A program made the translations under genes and the position numbers. From the NCBI GenBank assembly GCA_025201705.1, contig MU616567.1, positions 62,001 to 126,000 of the forward strand: DNA of 64,000 bases, written 5' to 3'. The notes under the pieces were generated by a model. The model saw only the letters and a program-made list of their open reading frames with translations, made no database searches and was not told the origin of the DNA. This stretch comes from Dissophora ornata. Its lineage: Eukaryota > Mortierellomycota > Mortierellomycetes > Mortierellales > Mortierellaceae. Positions 29,323 to 39,420 of the stretch are shown here, piece by piece; position 1 is the first letter of the stretch, and every line of letters starts with the position of its first letter.

Positions 29323-32300
29323 ATGAGGGGACTATGCTTCGCAGCGGCATCCTCCTCCTCCCCTCCCTCCCCACATGTCTCTCGCTTGCTCATGCTGCCC
29401 CCGCCTCGCCCTCCCCTCGGCCAGCATCTTCCTTCCCCGGATCCTTGCCATGATCTCCACCTGCATCCCACCCAACCCATTCATCCTCAATACCAGCCTG
29501 CATCCTCCCCACCTCCCTCTTTTCGACCGTTGCAACGCATTCGAGCATGCCCCGCTTCATGGCACTCGCTGTTTCTCTTGATCTCCCTCCTCTGCCTCGG
29601 GCCTTTCTCAGTCCTCCCCACTCACGCCCAGCTGGTCCCCGCTTCTACGACAGCCCTCGACACCGCCACGGCAGCCAATCCCACCACGGCAGCCCTCAAT
29701 CCCACCTCCACGCAGGTCGTTATTCCCTCGCCCTCCTCACAGCCATACCCGTCCAATCCTCTCCCTTCCTCCCATCAGGGCATTACTACCCTCACCGACT
29801 ACCACTTTGACTCGCCCAAGTGCAACGACTCTGGGCACCCGTATCGGGTCTCCCTCATCACCCATGGTAACATTGTCGCTCTCTTTGCGTGTTCAGCAAT
29901 TTAATACATTCCGATTTCCAAACACATATCCCAAGCATGTATTAACCTGCTCTTCCTTCCACCCTTCCACTCCCTCACCTTCTTTCCAACAGCAACAACC
30001 CTCACTGGGGACGATACAAAGCTTGATGCCAAAGCCTTTATCCCAATGACATTGACCGACGTACTTTCAGGGGTCGACTATGACGCAGAGCGAATGAGCG
30101 CCGCCATCTACGACGCCGTCAATTACCCTGTCGACGCCCTCATCGTCTCTATCCCCGACTACGACGTCCTCAAGGCGCCTATCCTCGCTGCTAGAGATAA
30201 AGGCATCCCTGTCATCGCCGTCTACACTGGCTTGCAGGCTGCTAAAGACATGGGCATTCTTGCAGTCATGTCGGATGAGGTATAATACACACATGCAATG
30301 GATATCGTGAATTGGTGACGGTATAGGTGATATAATCGACCAACATCTTAAAACTGCGTTGTTCAATTTAGTACGCATCAGGAAAGCTTCTCGGACAGCA
30401 ACTACTTCAGGATGGTAACTACACTCGCATTTGTATTCCCTGCTTCTCCTTCTCCATCTCTCCATCTCTCTCTCTCTCTCTCTCTTTCTCTTTCTACCCC
30501 TTTCATGTGCTCGCCAGTCTAGAACCCAGAGCACCCAGCTGACAATGTTCCGTATCATCTCCCATGCTCCTAGGCGTCAAGGACTTTGTTTGCATCAACG
30601 GGGCGATTAGGATACCCACGCTACTCGATCGCTGCAATGGAGTCCTGACCGCCTTCATTAACGCCGACACAGGTGTTTCCAACAACCTGACAGATCATGT
30701 GATTTACGTGGAAAAGTCGCGCAACAGCACCCTCCCAACAAATGCTCAAGCTATCGCAGAGAACATCCGTAAACAGAGTGCCGTAACTGGGATCGTCTAT
30801 CTAACCGCGCCGACGTTTTCAGATATGAGCCCTCAGCTCTCGACCCTCCTCAATAACACGCGCCCGTTCAAGATCGCAGCGTTCGATTTCAACAAGGATA
30901 TGAGTCGCTCCTTTGACCAGGGACAGCTTCATTACGCAATCTCCAGCTTGCTATATCTCCAAACACTTATCCCAATCCTACTGCTCTATATCCAGGCAAG
31001 TGGCATTTCGGTCTCTGCCAATGGACTATATAACGCTCACAGGCTTTTGATCTTCGCTGACCCTGTCTCTTGTCGTTCCCCTTCTCTTCCATAGCTCAAT
31101 ATAGGTGAAAAGATCAGCCAGGATCAAATTTTGACGGGACCGAAGCTCGTGACGCCCTCCAATGCAGATGATATGCTAGCGCAGGAAAACTGGAGTGTAA
31201 CCAGTTACAAAGAGTCCTCAAACAAGTTTAGCGTGATCACAGGCAGGCAAGTCTACATCTCATGTATATACTTTCACTTCTCTCAGGCTTTTATGTTCCT
31301 CTATGCTGACCTCGGGCGGCTCTTCTTTTCCCTTTCTATCGTATATAACTATGCTATAGCTCGCCCATCAACGAGCACTGGGATTTATTGTCGACAGGAG
31401 CACGGGATGCAGCAAAGTTTCTTAACTGGACTATGACAGAATACCGATTCGACAGCCCAATCCGACAGGACACCGTTGAGTACAGCATCGATTTGGCACT
31501 CAATGACACGGGTACCCAGGGACTGGTCGTGAGCAATGCGGTCGACGTCTACATTAACTATGCGCTGAACAAGACTCTAAATCAGGTTGCATCCCGAACG
31601 GCAGCCACAAACAAAACACTTCTGAAACTCTGTGACAACTCAAATCATGATTTACAGACCATGACCGCCAACTGTGAGTCCTTACCGCCCTGGAATCACA
31701 CCCTGAAGCAAGTGCTACCTCTACCCGTCGTTGGTATTGGTTCAACGTACAACTGGGCTTATCATCAGAGTCTGTCCTGGGTCGGAGAGAATGGATACAA
31801 AGCTGGCCAGGATTATGCGGACGTGATCCTGTCTTTTGGGAAAAAGAGCCCAATCTGTGTGGTTCAGAATGACGAACCAGCGCAACAAATGCTAATGTGT
31901 CATGGGCTCTATGACAGAATGGAGTCTTTCTTAGGCTCTGGGTCTCTCCCAGCCTTTGATGTTTACTGTGTGCGATTGACGCCTGGTGACCTCTCAGGAG
32001 CATCCAGGAAATTCGTTGAGGTCGGCCCATATAGCTATGATAGTGTCCACACGACTTCGACCATGCTTTTCGAAAACGTAAAGTACCTTGTCTCCAAAGG
32101 CGATATTGCGGAAAGCGTACAACTCACCACCACCGGACGGTCATCCACGGCCCTCACAGACTATATATCGGGCAAGGTCAAGAAGATATGGTCACAGCAA
32201 TCGTACTTGAGCGGATTCATGGCTGTCTTTGAGCTGGCCTTTTCATCCACGTTGCAGGACAAACCTTGGGATTTTATTGCAACAGGGCCTTCCCCAGTGG

Positions 32301-35300
32301 ATTATGTCTGCAACAAGGGTCAGATGATCTCCGTGGACCGTGACCGACAGTCGCTGTTCTGTCAACTCCCCACAGGATTGCACATCGCTCAGCCGTATTG
32401 CCAGCCATGTGGGATGCAAACTTTCAGTGACCAGTACAATAGTGTCAACTGCACCTCTTGCGCCGATGGCACATTCACAAATCAAACAGGGTCTCAAATA
32501 TGCCTGAGCTGTGATGATTTCGGAAAGTCGGATCCGGCTTGCCAGGATTACTTTTTGAACAAGCAGGGCAAGACCAATGTCGACCTCGCCATATTTTTGC
32601 CTCTCGGTCTTGTCGGCTTCGCGGTCATTGCAGCCTCGTCGCTCGTTTATTTCCTGCGCAATCGTAAGCGTCGGTTCCGCTTGCGGGACGATTCATGGAT
32701 GCTGGACTACAAAAGAATCATGGGTGTGTACCACGACTCGGATAGTGGGCTGGGGACACAGGACTCTGAATCCATGGCTGAGCGTGGCGCGCATGCCAAG
32801 CACGAAAACGATAGTCCCAAGGACCTTGTCCGGCCCACAGGAATGTTTCAGAGAAGCCATTCCACATTTCTTGGCGGTACATCTGGCATTCAGCCTATGG
32901 ACAGCTCAGGGAGAGCTATTGGCGTGTATCGCAACCTTCCTGTGTTTGTTCGTCGTATAGGAGGCAGAAAAGTCAATCTGACGCGTAAGATGCGCATCGA
33001 AATCATGGACGTCATGGAGCTGCGACATCCCAAACTGGTGGAACTCGTTGGCGTATGCCTCCAACCCCCCGACATCTGTATTGTCACAGAGCACTGTTCC
33101 AAGGGCACGCTGACGGACGTTTTGGCACATCCGGATTTGAATTTCAACTGGCTATTCAAGCTCTCCTTTATGAGTGATATTTCACGAGGTATGGAATTTT
33201 TGCACCAGTCCAAGATCCAGTTCCATGGCGATTTGCGGTCAGCCAACTGCCTCATTACGAGCCGCTGGGAGGTCAAAGTCGGTGGATATGGGCTCGCTCA
33301 GCTCTACGAGTCTCAACAACCCAGTTATGGAGCAACGTCTCACGGATCCGCGGATACAAGCTATGGAACGCAGCGGAACTCGATGCGAGCAAGCATTGAG
33401 AGCCATTACGGGAACGGCTCTTCGAGTTCGCTACCTCTTCAAAACAATCTAGGAGACGAGCATTTGGAGATGGGGGATATACCATATCACGTCGCAAGTA
33501 CAGCCAAGGATATTCAGGATGGCTGTTGGGTGGCGCCTGAGAACATGGTCCGCAGTGGTTCCGTTTTCCACAAGTCGGCAAGTAAAGCGGGCGATGTCTA
33601 CAGCGCGGGTATCGTTTTTAACGAGATTATGACGCGGAAGACGCCTTATTCAAGGCAGTTGACGGCACTCGATCCTGAACTAGGTCCATCGCTGCTGCTA
33701 GACATGGTTAAACATGATAACCTCCGACCCGACTTTTTGCTGGATGACGCTTCAGACGAGAGTATCGGTGCAGTCAATCACTTGATTCGCAACTGTCTCC
33801 AACCTGATCCATACCTACGTCCGTCATTTGCTTCTATTCTCCATCGTTTACGACTTATCAGTCCGGACGGAGACATGATTGGAGGCATGGCAGCATTGCT
33901 TGAAAAATACGCCAATGACATGGAGGAGCTGGTGCGAACCAGGACCATGCATCTTCAAACACGGACCGCTGAACTAGAGGGGGAGCGACTGCGAACGCAG
34001 ACGCTTCTGGAAGATCTCGGTAAAGCCAAGAACCATGCCGAGGAAGCAGCGAGAGCAAAGTCTAACTTTTTGGCCAACATGTCCCATGAGATCAGGCAAG
34101 TGTTTGTTCACTGTGCCCCACTGCGAAAAGCCTTGTCTTCTATAACCTATTTTATCTAACACGTAACCCCTTCTTGGCTTTGAACTTGACGCTATATCAC
34201 ACTATCGTAGAACACCCATGAACGCAGTCATCGGCATGTCACGTATTCTACTGGAGTCCGATCTCTCTCCAGATCTAATGGATTGTGCTGAGACGATCGA
34301 ATCAAGCGGAAATCAGCTCATGGCTGTCATCGACGACATCCTTGACTTTAGCAAGATTGAATCTGGCAAATTGAAGCTCGCTCCCGAGCCCTTGGATCTT
34401 CCCTGGCTCCTAGAGTCTGTCTGCAACCTAGTTTCTATGCAGGCTGCGACCAAGGGTCTGGGCCTCACGTTTGTCCTCCATCCTGATACGCCTACGCAGG
34501 TACTGGGAGATTTGGTTAGGATCCGCCAGATCCTCTTGAATCTGCTAAGCAACGCCATCAAATTCACGGACAAGGGCAACATTGTTGTCAAGCTTGAGCC
34601 AAAGCCAAGGGTCTTTCAAGGCGTTGGTGCCAGGGTTTATGAAAACGACGAACCCGAGGATGAGGGTATACATGAATCATCCCAGCTGATGCTTCATGCC
34701 GACCACGGATCGTCCGAGTCCATTCTCGGTCAGGTCCACTCCCGTGGCCCTTCAAGGACAGGAAACAGGCACCGGCAGTCGCTGAAAATTACTGGGCGTA
34801 TCCCATCCCAAGATCATGTCAAAGATTACAGGCATTCACACGAGAACCAGGTTGACTTACTCTGGTCTGTAGTTGACCAGGGTTGTGGTATTCCAGCTGA
34901 GCGCATGGATCGCCTGTTCAAAAGCTTTTCGCAAGCCGACGACTCTGTTACTAGGAATTTTGGAGGGACAGGACTCGGACTTGCGATTTCTAAAAAACTT
35001 GTCGAGCTAATGGATGGTGAAATGGTAAATTGAATTTGGTGCAATGTTTGCAATCTCTAGTGTGCATATTCACGCGATGATATGAAAATTAACTCTCTCT
35101 TCTTTTCATTCCTCCTAATTTCTCAAGTGGGCAGAGTCCGAGGAAGGAGTAGGATCGACATTTTACTTTACAACGTTCTTAGAGTCTCCCAAGGCGAGCC
35201 CTACAGTGGCACAGCAGCTCAACATAGCCTTCTTCAGTGACAAGACACTGCTGATCCTAGACGACAGGCGTATAAGCAGGACATCATGGCAATATCAATC

Positions 35301-37527
35301 CTCGACATGGGGATTCCAGAAGACACTGGTGCTGAGTGTCCAAAAAGGCCTGGATTACCTAAAGCAGAATCCCAATCAAGTCGATGTGATTATGATTGAC
35401 ATCGACAAACCCCAGGCAAAGGTCAATCCCGGTCTGGCAGTCCTTCAACAAGTCCGGAGCATGCTCAACGAGGATTCTGACGGCGAAGAAGGAAAGCGGC
35501 GACAGGAGAAACCCGTGCCTTGCGTCCTAGTCTCTTATCATCGCCGCAGCCATCCTTTGCAGCAGACCAGCGCCTCGTCGGTCCCAGCTAAGAGCGGCCC
35601 ACCTAGCTCCGTTTCGACTGCTATGGTTCACGTAGAGGGTCTGCCTGCCACAATCATCAGCGCCACCAGTAGCCATGAGAGTCTCTCGGATAGCTTTAAG
35701 AGCTACGGTCCTTCCAAGGAGCCCTCATCTACGCAGGACGAGTCCTTGATACCCCGTTCTTACCCCAGTACAACATGTACACCGAACATTCTGAACAGTG
35801 GCATGTTGGCGGCCAAGCCTTGGAGCTCTCTCAAAGAACGGCCGACGAGTCATCCCAACAGAGCCACGTCCCCGTCCTCCCTCGCGGTACCTGGCCAGGC
35901 CCAGGGTGTTGATGCCGATCCTACTGTAGGCCACTTGGTCAAGCCTGTCAAGCAGGCTAAACTTTTTAGCATGTTGCATGGTTTGCTGACTGGGTCGTGG
36001 CCTCCGGCCCCATTGGCAGTGCCTGACCTGGATCATCAAGAACATGAACGCAAACGTCAGCTTGAGTCGCTACAGTGTCTATTGGTCGATGATAATCCTG
36101 TGAACCAAAAGGTCATTTCGAAAATGTTGGGTAGGATCGGTATCACGCCAGAGCTCGCCAACAATGGCCAAGAGGCCGTGGACAAGTGTCGGGCCCGAGC
36201 TGAGGCTGTGGCCCGAGCGCGCACCTCTGCAGAGAACGGTGTCGTGGTGGACCCAACCGCGGCTGTTGCAAGGCAGTATGACATTATTTTTATCGACGTC
36301 TGGATGCCTGTCAAGGATGGCTTAGAAGCTACTAGCGAGATTCGAGCAACGATCGAGGGCGTGACTGGAGGAGACCCTTTTATTGTTGCGATGACGGCGT
36401 GTGTGATGCCTGGCGATCGCGAAAAGTGCATTGACAGTGGGATGAACGCATACCTGTCCAAGCCGATCAAGAAAGAGGAGCTGTGTACGACTCTGGAACG
36501 ATGGCTGGACGATCGATCGAACGCAGAGATAGAGCGTAAGCAGAGTCACGAGCGAAAGGTGATTCAAAGGAAGAAGCGGGAGATGCTGCGGAGACGAAGT
36601 ATGGCGGTACTGGTTCCTGCAAAGGCCGCCGGCTCACAGGATATAGCTCCGGCAGTGCCCATGGCAGCGCCGGGTCACGAGAGTTGGCAGCAAGAGCAAT
36701 ACAACCCGACAGATGACGATGACGAGGAAGATGAAGACGACGAAGAAGACGAGCCACTAGAGGGTGAGGAGACGGTAGATGAGGACGAAGGCTTGGACGA
36801 GGACATGTCTCATAGCGGTCTGGTAGGCATGGATGACCTGCGGTTGGTGAATATGAAGCTTGAAAGCGCCAAACAAAGGAAAGGGTCGTATTCGCGTCAT
36901 CCGCGTCAACGAACTAGACATCGTGGCGAGCTGGTTCTGAGCGATAGTGAAGGCGTCCTAGGCTGTCGCGGTGGAGGCGGAGGAGGACTGAAGATGGTCA
37001 GTGTTGCTGCTGAGGCTGGTCTCGCAGCACGACGGCTGTCACAGAAGCACAAGCAAGATCGGCGGGAGCGGAGCCAGGCCCAGAAAAAACTGAGAGAGGA
37101 GAAATTCCGGGAGGGGGGTCGTAGCCGTCTGGGCTCGTTCTCTGTAGATCCGGCGGTGGGGGGTCCCCCTCTGGTAGAAGGTACCATCGAGCTGTCGACC
37201 GATGTTGACGATGATGATGAAGATGATGACGATGACGATGAAGACGAGGAAAGTGGTTCGGGTAGCGAGATGGACAGCACCGGCAGGGGGTCGTACCCTA
37301 GGGGAGCAACGCTGGATAGGGCTTCATCTAATGCCACGGCCGAGACTGTGAAGACGGCCGGGACGATGGATACTATGCAGACCACGACGGGCTCGTTCCA
37401 CACGGCGCACACACACACCGGAGCGTCGAGTAACGACAGCCACGGCGGCAGCGTGTGGGTGCCCTCTGACACTTCGAGCATGGGCACGGTCAGAGGGATG
37501 GATCGACAGTGGAGTCGCGACAGCTAA
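29323..37527 (+). CDS. Receptor-type hybrid histidine kinase with guanylyl-cyclase-receptor-like kinase-homology domain
   Basis: Eight exons (29323-29866, 29993-30279, 30372-30414, 30574-30995, 31095-31246, 31360-34095, 34211-35024, 35128-37527) join to 2466 codons. Order of domains: a Pro-rich N-terminus and hydrophobic signal (SLFLLISLLCLG) ending near THAQ; two type-1 periplasmic-binding-like domains (about 174-470 and 480-820); a Cys-rich GCC2/EGF-like segment (829-878); TM 890-917; a kinase-homology domain (about 1003-1311) with ELRHPKLVELVGVCL, FHGDLRSANCL and WVAPENM; a coiled coil (1329-1385); HisKA with SHEIRTPMN (His1392); HATPase N-box LSNAIKF and GGTGLGLAIS; REC1 (Asp1757, with a long insert before Lys1938); REC2 with DDN, Asp2056, MTA and SKP; an acidic Ser-rich tail. 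It should sense a small extracellular ligand and drive a phosphorelay to an Hpt protein. Three introns (30996, 31247, 34096) use GC donors. The start is uncertain: an in-frame ATG lies upstream at 29128. Confidence 0.92.
30465..30485 (+). repeat. (TC)n dinucleotide repeat in an intron of the receptor kinase
   Basis: About ten TC units in the intron 30415-30573. It lengthens the polypyrimidine tract and has no coding role. Confidence 0.85.
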
Positions 37528-38253
37528 AAGTCGTGTCGATTCCAAGGCGATGTTGTCTTGATTATTTGTGAATTGTTTAATATTTTGGTTTTTGTTTGTT
37601 TGTCTTCGTTTTTGTTCTTCTTTGATCCCGGGGACGGTGGATGAGTGCGATGCGCTGTTGATGGCATTCCACATTCCACGTTGTATTTCTAGCTGTACTA
37701 TTCCATCTATCACGGCTAAAACGCCAATAAAATATAATGACACTGCTGTGCACAGCAACGTGCGTGCATGGCCGCCCTGAAAAAAAAAGCGATGTTGTAC
37801 AACTGCTTTTTGTGTTGCTACGGCCTATTCGCGTGCTGCAAATCAGGTTCAAATAGGGCGCATTGGCATTGTTCAGTGAGGCTGTGTTGCCGTTCAGAGC
37901 GCTCTGCGCGAAATTGGAAAACGCGCTGTCGCATTTCAGGTCACGTGCTTCATATGTCAATGACGTCGCTTTAACATCTCGCAGCGGGATGCATCCTCTT
38001 CATCAAACCCTTCATTCTCCATCCTCCTCATCGTCCTCTGCTCCCCTCGTAAGTTCGTCGCTGACTACTCGGCCTCTGCTACTGCTTCTGCTCCCATATG
38101 CCGCCACCGGCTGTTGGGCATCATCCCTAGAATTGTTGTTTTCCAAAGCGTTACTTGCTCATTCCCGTTCGTGCGCGCTGTCGGGTCTTGGCCGTCTCTC
38201 AATCAGATGCCTAACCCTTCGCTTCTCTTGACAAAAAAGACATTTCCTCCAAC
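37528..38253. other. Intergenic region: terminator of the receptor kinase, promoter of clathrin light chain
   Basis: About 725 bp. The first 250 bp are T-rich with AATAAA-like text (CAATAAAATATAATG near 37730), suitable for a 3' end. The last 250 bp are C/T-rich and form the clathrin light-chain leader. No gene or RNA seen. Confidence 0.55.
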
Positions 38254-39420
38254 ATGGACGACTTTTCCTTCGATGCCCCATCCTCTAAAAAGAACGACTT
38301 TGGCTCTGATGACCCCACGGCGGATTTCCTTGCCCGCGAGGCGGCCATCTTGGGAGGCGATGCCGACTTCCTTGCTGGTCTGTCATCTGGATCGGCTGTG
38401 ACCTCGCCTACCAACAACCTCGGTGGCGACTTCGAATCGAACTTCCCAAGCTTTACAGAGCACGAGGCATCACTCACTAGCCCCTCTATCAGTGGCACGG
38501 CGCGTGATGTCTCTGCACCTTCAGTCACAGTAGCCGCAGACGACGACGACTTTGGCGCCTTCCATAGCGACTACCCTGCAATCGAAACTACAGAGTCGGC
38601 GCCTGTTAGCCAGGTAAGGAGCGTTCGATTGGCAGCTTTGGTTTGGGCCTGATATGGACCTACACGTGGCAGTCTTTTTTACTCTGTAGACGCGTCGTTA
38701 TATCTTGGCAGCAGTTTTCATGAACTGTTCCTGTACTCACCTACCGCCCAATCAACTATTAATAGACGTTTGCTGCTAGTATCCCGATTCAGGCCACAGG
38801 AGTCAGCCCTGGATTTGGAAGCCCAAGTCCTTCCATTAACCGTGCACCCCAATTCAAGCCCGCCGAAGTTCCTGAAGTTGTCAAGTATGGCTTTCTGCTT
38901 TGGCAAGGCATTATTCTGATAAGCCGTCGCTTTATGGGGGGTGTTTTAACTCTTTTTCTTTATCTCTATCACAGGGAATGGCGCGAAAAGCAAGCAACCA
39001 TCATCGCAGAGAAGGATGACAAATCGGAGACCAAGCGCCAGGAGACTATTGGAGCTGCTCATGAGGCAATCGACCGTTTCTACGAGGATTACAATCAAAA
39101 GAAGGCCAAGTCCATCGCGGAGAACAGGTAATATACAATGGCTGAAGCTCGCAAGACTCTTATGTCCTAGCAAGGGCTTTGTGGATACCCTTTGACCGGT
39201 GTGTGTTCTTTGCTTTGCTTCCAATAGGGACAAGGAAGCCGAATTTTTGACTAGGAGAGATGACGTGTCTTCAGGAACACAGTGGGAGCGCATCAACCGC
39301 CACTTGGATAGCAGCCCCGCTGCTGTCTCAGCAGCACTGAAGGCCGGTCGTCGCGACACGAGCAGGATGAGAGAGCTGCTGCGCGATCTCGAGAAAGATC
39401 CAAATGCCCCTGGAAAATAA
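38254..39420 (+). CDS. CLC1: Clathrin light chain
   Basis: Four exons (38254-38613, 38766-38884, 38975-39127, 39228-39420) join to 275 codons (274 residues, the usual size). Clathrin light chain binds the heavy-chain proximal leg and regulates coat assembly in endocytosis and trans-Golgi traffic. Seen: an acidic, Phe-containing N-terminus (MDDFSFDAP, then DDDFGAF), the conserved central coiled-coil helix EWREKQATIIAEKD through AIDRFYEDYNQKKAKSIAENR that binds the heavy chain, and the C-terminal block TQWERINRHLD...RDTSRMRELLRDLEKDPNAPG. All junctions are standard GT-AG. The gene converges with the SLC35 gene across 316 bp. Confidence 0.95.

Follow-up and report, generated by a model that had tools for sequence, protein, structure and literature searches.

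The window analysed here is a stretch of 64,000 nucleotides from contig MU616567.1 of Dissophora ornata. The gene at its positions 29323 to 37527 probably encodes a hybrid histidine kinase built as a single-pass membrane receptor, in which a pseudokinase of the receptor guanylyl cyclase (RGC) type is the allosteric transmitter; we put the probability of this reading at roughly 0.78. The family to which the gene belongs is a hybrid histidine kinase family by its output and RGC-type by its transmitter, and it is not a family of receptor guanylyl cyclases. The reading is based on the parts of the protein and their order, the kinship of its kinase-homology domain (KHD), the loss of catalytic residues, a fixed spacing in front of the histidine kinase, and the conservation of all these. 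A preliminary description had seen here the body plan of a receptor guanylyl cyclase with the cyclase replaced by a phosphorelay histidine kinase. Its observation is confirmed and its interpretation is partly supported, "cyclase replaced" being a statement of composition and not of history.

Gene structure and domain order

29323..37527, + strand: whole gene, 8 exons, 2465 aa
29323-29866, 29993-30279, 30372-30414, 30574-30995, 31095-31246, 31360-34095, 34211-35024, 35128-37527, + strand: exons

With the seven introns spliced out, a single open frame of 2465 codons runs from the ATG at 29323 to the stop codon ending at 37527, as had been described. The domains follow in the order of two periplasmic-binding-protein domains, a Cys-rich stalk, a transmembrane helix, the KHD, an S-helix, HisKA, HATPase_c, a diverged receiver and a canonical receiver. 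In the 2465-aa model Pfam recognises Peripla_BP_4, PK_Tyr_Ser-Thr/Pkinase (in the KHD, split in two by an insert), HisKA, HATPase_c and one Response_reg, and no PF00211 class III cyclase domain; this is the outcome of the profile check that the preliminary description had suggested.

Exon 6 (31360-34095) is uninterrupted and encodes residues 484 to 1394, that is, the second binder domain, the stalk, the transmembrane helix, the KHD, the S-helix and the phospho-acceptor His1392. One exon thus leads from the ectodomain to the phospho-histidine, and therefore the KHD and the histidine kinase are fused in one gene and are not two genes. An artefact, in which the splicing prediction joined adjacent receptor and histidine-kinase genes, is ruled out by exon 6 and by the same fusion in 107 listed homologues, and its probability is negligible.

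The splice junctions were compared in 20 of these 107 homologues (P0001-P0020). The alignment runs without a break through junctions 2 to 7, which the homologues thus support; on average 8.3 to 16.0 out of 16 residues are identical there, and individual rows drop to 0 at junctions 4 and 5. The first junction does less well (mean 5.5 of 16) and is uncertain. Three of the seven predicted introns (30996, 31247, 34096) have GC-AG ends, each with the donor GCAAGT. The start codon and the N-terminal 80 residues ahead of the hydrophobic stretch are doubtful.

Kinship of the kinase-homology domain

32918..33871, + strand: RGC-type KHD, pseudokinase, about residues 1003-1320, with a low-confidence insert at about 1139-1188

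The comparisons support the assignment of the KHD to the RGC type, and not to ordinary fungal Ser/Thr kinases. In phmmer searches with the KHD and the coil, GC-A was matched at 4.7e-42 (147 bits) and GC-C at 9.1e-27 (97 bits), while the best matches outside the RGC group were EGFR (3.3e-18, 69 bits, in a chain with two kinase copies) and CTR1 (1.3e-17, 67 bits). The family profile, built from 35 sequences, scored 232 bits for GC-A, 149 for GC-C, 99 for CTR1 and 88 for both ABL and RAF; CTR1 is the top match outside both the RGC group and the tyrosine kinases. The motifs quoted earlier as RGC-like are present in the predicted protein, RKVNLTRK starting at residue 1019, together with LRHPKLVELVGVCLQPPDIC and DISRGMEFLHQS. 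RGCs are represented in these comparisons by two sequences, GC-A and GC-C, both from solved structures. Protein searches aimed at animal RGCs returned 65 proteins and 2 fragments with no animal RGC among them, the 65 proteins comprising members of the family, fragments from metagenomes, a histidine kinase from the Mucorales, and four kinases that are from plants or oomycetes or unnamed.

In the tree of 40 kinase domains, whose root was not inferred, 26 family KHDs together with GC-A and GC-C are split from the 12 other kinases with the support of 100/99, as expected from the preliminary description. The tree contains 26 of the 119 members (29 were picked, and P0061, P0101 and P0102 removed; P0136, P0137, P0139 and P0140 are also out). 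The comparators are few and were chosen by similarity, and six of the 12 come from the D. ornata genome, where L019, L021 and L022 were left out of the kinase loci L014-L022. GC-A stays with the family after removal of GC-C and two other long rows, again at 100/99 when rooted on ZAK. The approximately unbiased (AU) test rejects the grouping of the family with five tyrosine kinase-like (TKL) type kinases of the same genome (p 0.0007) and with CTR1 (p 0.0012).

Eleven positions are common to GC-A and at least 70% of the 26 family KHDs and occur in at most 20% of the 12 other kinases. Nine of the eleven are also seen in GC-C, and nine in the D. ornata KHD. The AlphaFold model of the KHD with the coil has the pLDDT of 83.9, and Foldseek of the KHD model against the PDB places GC-A chains at all ranks from 1 to 5 (7.8e-18 to 2.7e-14), human FES sharing the E-value of the fifth-ranked chain.

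Some results weigh against this kinship. The grouping of GC-A with GC-C in the tree is weak (89/57), and the tree tool flagged long branches. Structural similarity to GC-A is moderate, the TM-scores being 0.56-0.58 when normalised by query length. The raw KHD identity of the D. ornata protein is 33.1% both to CTR1 (181 columns) and to GC-A (242 columns), and since CTR1 ties with GC-A, raw identity was dropped as a proof of RGC kinship. This tie over fewer columns, and the position of CTR1 as the best match that is neither an RGC nor a tyrosine kinase, would fit a fusion of a histidine kinase with a TKL-type kinase of the ordinary fungal sort, whose resemblance to RGCs is generic. However, the 100/99 split, both AU tests, the eleven GC-A-type positions and the Foldseek ranking all speak against such an origin, which is rejected for the kinases tested and which we consider very improbable.

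Loss of catalytic residues

In the D. ornata KHD, R1014 replaces the VAIK Lys, the HRD position is HGD (1105-1107), and GYG (1125-1127) replaces DFG. With the VAIK Lys and the DFG Asp gone, the domain is, as judged from its residues, a pseudokinase. Residues were counted by named organism in group A (the D. ornata protein and P0001-P0054, 55 sequences), group B (other Mortierella-type proteins, 35) and the Mucorales (18); P0090, P0098, P0100 and P0105 are Mortierella proteins and were not counted with the Mucorales. In group A the VAIK Lys is replaced by Arg in 55/55 and the DFG Asp by Gly or Ser in 55/55. Group B has lost both the HRD Asp and the DFG Asp (35/35 each), and the Mucorales members have lost the HRD Asp (18/18). 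The residue pattern of the latter is that of GC-A (Lys kept, HGN, DYG), and group A is the furthest from nucleotide binding.

Residues that are retained count on the other side: the HRD Asp in 47/55 of group A, the VAIK Lys in 32/35 of group B, and, in the Mucorales, the VAIK Lys in 17/18 and the DFG-type Asp in 15/18. Going by these residues, nucleotide binding is an open possibility in some members, and catalysis hardly one. They might suggest that the KHD is a working kinase, phosphorylating its own receptor or its partners alongside the histidine kinase. Since no group has the full set of essential residues, an active kinase is highly unlikely.

S-helix, histidine kinase and receivers

33875..34090, + strand: S-helix that continues into the HisKA helix, residues 1322-1393, a single unbroken helix in the AlphaFold model
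34055..34367, + strand: HisKA, residues 1382-1447, broken by the intron 34096-34210
34085-34087, + strand: predicted phospho-acceptor His1392
34494..35199, + strand: HATPase_c, about residues 1490-1690, with N and G boxes, broken by the intron 35025-35127
35227..36024, + strand: diverged first receiver, about residues 1700-1965, with Asp1757 at the likely acceptor place
36067..36504, + strand: canonical receiver, about residues 1980-2125, Pfam Response_reg
36295-36297, + strand: predicted phospho-acceptor Asp2056

The coil motif YANDMEELVRTRT starts at residue 1333, and GC-A has YANNLEELVEERT at the aligned position. The coil had been taken as a sign of RGC origin. The alignment with the GC-A motif stands, but of the whole motif just the 'YAN' part appears RGC-like, and the motif was dropped as a proof because bacterial histidine kinases carry LExxVxxRT too. 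The passages of PMC1592074 on the S-helix describe this motif in both histidine kinases and receptor cyclases, name the S-helix as commonest upstream of histidine kinases, and propose it as a switch against constitutive output, citing mutants of Sln1 and receptor cyclases.

The motif was matched in 118 of the 119 members, and in 116 of them SHEIRTP follows the LExLVxxRT-like motif at a distance of 54 residues. This distance is 71 in P0092, where the insert may be a misread intron, and 68 in P0029, where two further seven-residue units (QARTADL), 14 residues in all, follow the motif with the register kept. P0029 is a natural family member with the S-helix extended by two heptads, and as such bears on the heptad rule. 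Among 13 bacterial proteins, ten S-helix matches were obtained; seven have the spacing of 33 or 40, in phase modulo 7. The other three, near-copies at the spacing of 55, are out of phase and do not agree with a fixed register.

His1392 is invariant (55/55 in group A, 35/35 in group B, 18/18 in the Mucorales). The N box Asn is present in 106/108 members (2 gaps), the G box Gly in 107/108 (1 gap), and Asp2056 is Asp in 99/108, with a gap in the other nine. Hence the family has, at the level of sequence, the residues that characterise a fungal hybrid histidine kinase, namely HisKA with the phospho-His, HATPase_c, and a receiver with the phospho-Asp. The proposed HisKA-HATPase-REC-REC output is clear for HisKA, HATPase_c and the second receiver, whereas the first receiver is diverged: it has no Pfam match, and its best E-value against solved receivers is a weak 0.015. 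Its likely acceptor place is Asp in 52/55 of group A and 18/18 of the Mucorales, and Glu in 27/35 of group B.

Ectodomain and other features

29566..29622, + strand: hydrophobic stretch, residues 82-100, perhaps a signal peptide or anchor
29800..31208, + strand: first periplasmic-binding-protein domain, sugar-binder (CUT2) type, about residues 160-470, broken by introns
31236..32311, + strand: second periplasmic-binding-protein domain, about residues 480-800
32369..32551, + strand: Cys-rich stalk, about residues 820-880, Ephrin_rec_like match below the cut-off
32591..32647, + strand: single transmembrane helix, residues 894-912, hydropathy 2.31
36505..37524, + strand: C-terminal tail following the last receiver, of low complexity and partly acidic, seen in the sequence

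The ectodomain is of a ligand-binding type, as had been thought, but it consists of two tandem domains of the bacterial sugar-binder type and a Cys-rich stalk. In the first domain Peripla_BP_4 is matched at 4.5e-15 (residues 208-434), and the family profile gives 144 bits with 4ru1, a bacterial CUT2 monosaccharide-binding protein. The second (residues 603-798) matches the rhizopine-binder model NF052284 at 5.6e-9 with 35.5 bits, far under the curated cut-off of 420 for this model. There is no Pfam match to ANF_receptor in the 2465-aa model up to E 0.1, the ectodomain being called Peripla_BP_4 instead. The last 150 residues of the ectodomain contain nine Cys. A transmembrane-like stretch is seen at the equivalent position in all six homologues scanned.

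A clathrin light chain gene (38215-38652, + strand) lies just downstream of the receptor gene. The other neighbours are dicarboxylate symporter, C2/tricalbin-like, mannosyltransferase and ubiquitin hydrolase genes, and the locus looks ordinary.

Distribution and the D. ornata genome

In the homologue search 8000 candidates were scored, and the best 120 of 3863 matches were considered. The first 107 of these belong to the family, all above the first bacterial match, with identity reaching 70% over 98% of the query region. In the domain table, read by eye, the kinase, HisKA and HATPase domains are present in 107/107 and Peripla_BP_4 in 95/107. The members are the 54 close relatives of group A, the second Mortierella group and the Mucorales. 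Lineages were looked up for Lobosporangium (Mortierellomycota) and Phascolomyces (Mucorales); the remaining organisms we take to belong to one or the other. The survey of early-diverging fungi proposed earlier thus finds the layout in both lineages among the best 107 of 3863 matches; about a hundred relatives in the Mortierellomycota and Mucorales share it, which suggests a conserved class of receptors.

The histidine-kinase tree (27 members and 21 domains from 13 bacterial proteins, the histidine kinases of the D. ornata genome being left out) gives the same three groups as the KHD tree, each at 99 or 100. The fusion of the KHD to the histidine kinase is probably older than groups A, B and the Mucorales. 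The two trees conflict over the sister pairs, group B with the Mucorales in the histidine-kinase tree (91/81) and A with B in the KHD tree (91/89).

The genome scan covered 31.4 Mb in 968 contigs, and its counts are lower bounds. The strong KHD matches and all Peripla_BP_4 matches fall in the window gene and one paralogue (L039 on contig C108), other kinase matches being below 40 bits. The paralogue belongs to group B, and its exons carry the same domains as the window gene. The stalk of L039 also matches NCD3G, the nine-cysteine domain of family 3 G-protein-coupled receptors, below the cut-off. No receptor cyclase was found in the D. ornata contigs; the two PF00211 places (L040 and L041, on separate contigs) adjoin leucine-rich repeats and are adenylate-cyclase-like. 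There are at least two Hpt-domain places and at least 15 receiver places.

Comparison with known systems

With animal receptor guanylyl cyclases (GC-A/NPR-A, GC-C) the family shares a KHD of the same clade and fold, the S-helix directly after it ('YAN..EELV..RT' in GC-A), and, in the Mucorales, the pseudokinase residues of GC-A. GC-A likewise has a single transmembrane helix and a periplasmic-binding-protein-like ectodomain. Unlike these receptors, the family has no cyclase, its output is HisKA-HATPase-REC, its proteins are about twice as long, and its ectodomain is tandem, of the Peripla_BP_4 type, with a Cys-rich stalk. The first ectodomain resembles bacterial CUT2 sugar-binding proteins such as 4ru1, although those are transport components and not receptor ectodomains.

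Sixteen groups of fungal hybrid histidine kinases (HHKs) have been published. Group X has a protein-kinase-like domain, GAF and HisKA and is soluble. It resembles the family in that a protein-kinase-like domain precedes the hybrid histidine kinase on its N-terminal side, and is set apart, by its description, in being soluble and having GAF. Hybrid histidine kinases such as Sln1, as treated in passages of PMC1592074, share the S-helix-HisKA-HATPase-REC output and a presumed Hpt phosphorelay; they differ from the family, which has a pseudokinase between the transmembrane helix and the S-helix, and a sugar-binder ectodomain.

In agreement with the preliminary description, no account of this layout was found in the open-licence literature searched. 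The survey in PMC5285503, which includes HHKs of Mortierella elongata and Umbelopsis, speaks of 'unprecedented HHKs' that have transmembrane helices; its text, the part covered here, lacks the terms 'protein kinase' and 'periplasmic', and its figures might show such a protein. Source names include 'RGC/RGC protein kinase' (P0018, P0126) and 'guanylate cyclase' (P0092, P0122, P0126), which show that annotation pipelines caught the RGC likeness but misnamed the output.

Proposed mechanism and implications

The tandem ectodomain would bind a small ligand; its sugar-binding-protein type makes a sugar or polyol the likeliest one. The resulting change would cross the transmembrane helix to a dimeric RGC-type pseudokinase, whose part would be allosteric transmission and not catalysis. 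The rigid S-helix, in a fixed heptad register, would relay the change to the HisKA dimer and so set how autophosphorylation and phosphatase activity are balanced at His1392. From there phosphate would pass to Asp2056, to an Hpt protein and then to response regulators.

Given shared ancestry of the KHD, either output, cyclase or histidine kinase, may have come first. The cassette could have joined the histidine kinase first and been given a cyclase in exchange in animals, or both could descend from an older third form. The prevalence of the S-helix upstream of histidine kinases (in the passages of PMC1592074) and the presence of the fusion in all three groups are consistent with this; the evidence here does not polarise the change, and no cyclase-bearing fungal relative was seen, which has little weight, as the protein searches never reached animal RGCs. 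We regard these histories as possible but less likely than not.

In the relevant passages of the kinome surveys, the RGC kinase group has no representatives in 30 Dikarya proteomes (PMC2838846) and is missing from yeasts and a microsporidian (PMC2078597). These passages leave out the Mortierellomycota and Mucorales, Rhizopus being given as 'data not shown'. RGC-type kinase domains in these two lineages would extend the RGC group into fungi, with the KHD-S-helix-histidine kinase family as a third arrangement.

The chances appear evenly balanced that the Mortierellomycota and Mucorales have here an undescribed receptor class, which depends on an RGC-group pseudokinase as the obligatory allosteric link to its phosphorelay, and that the cassette is an old opisthokont module. 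If so, animals would have coupled the cassette of ligand binder, transmembrane helix, KHD and S-helix to a cyclase, and fungi to a histidine kinase, and the S-helix would be the junction that made the output exchange possible. The family suggests a rule for natural chimeras, that the heptad register is kept, and it would allow the role of the cyclase-receptor pseudokinase to be studied with a different output.

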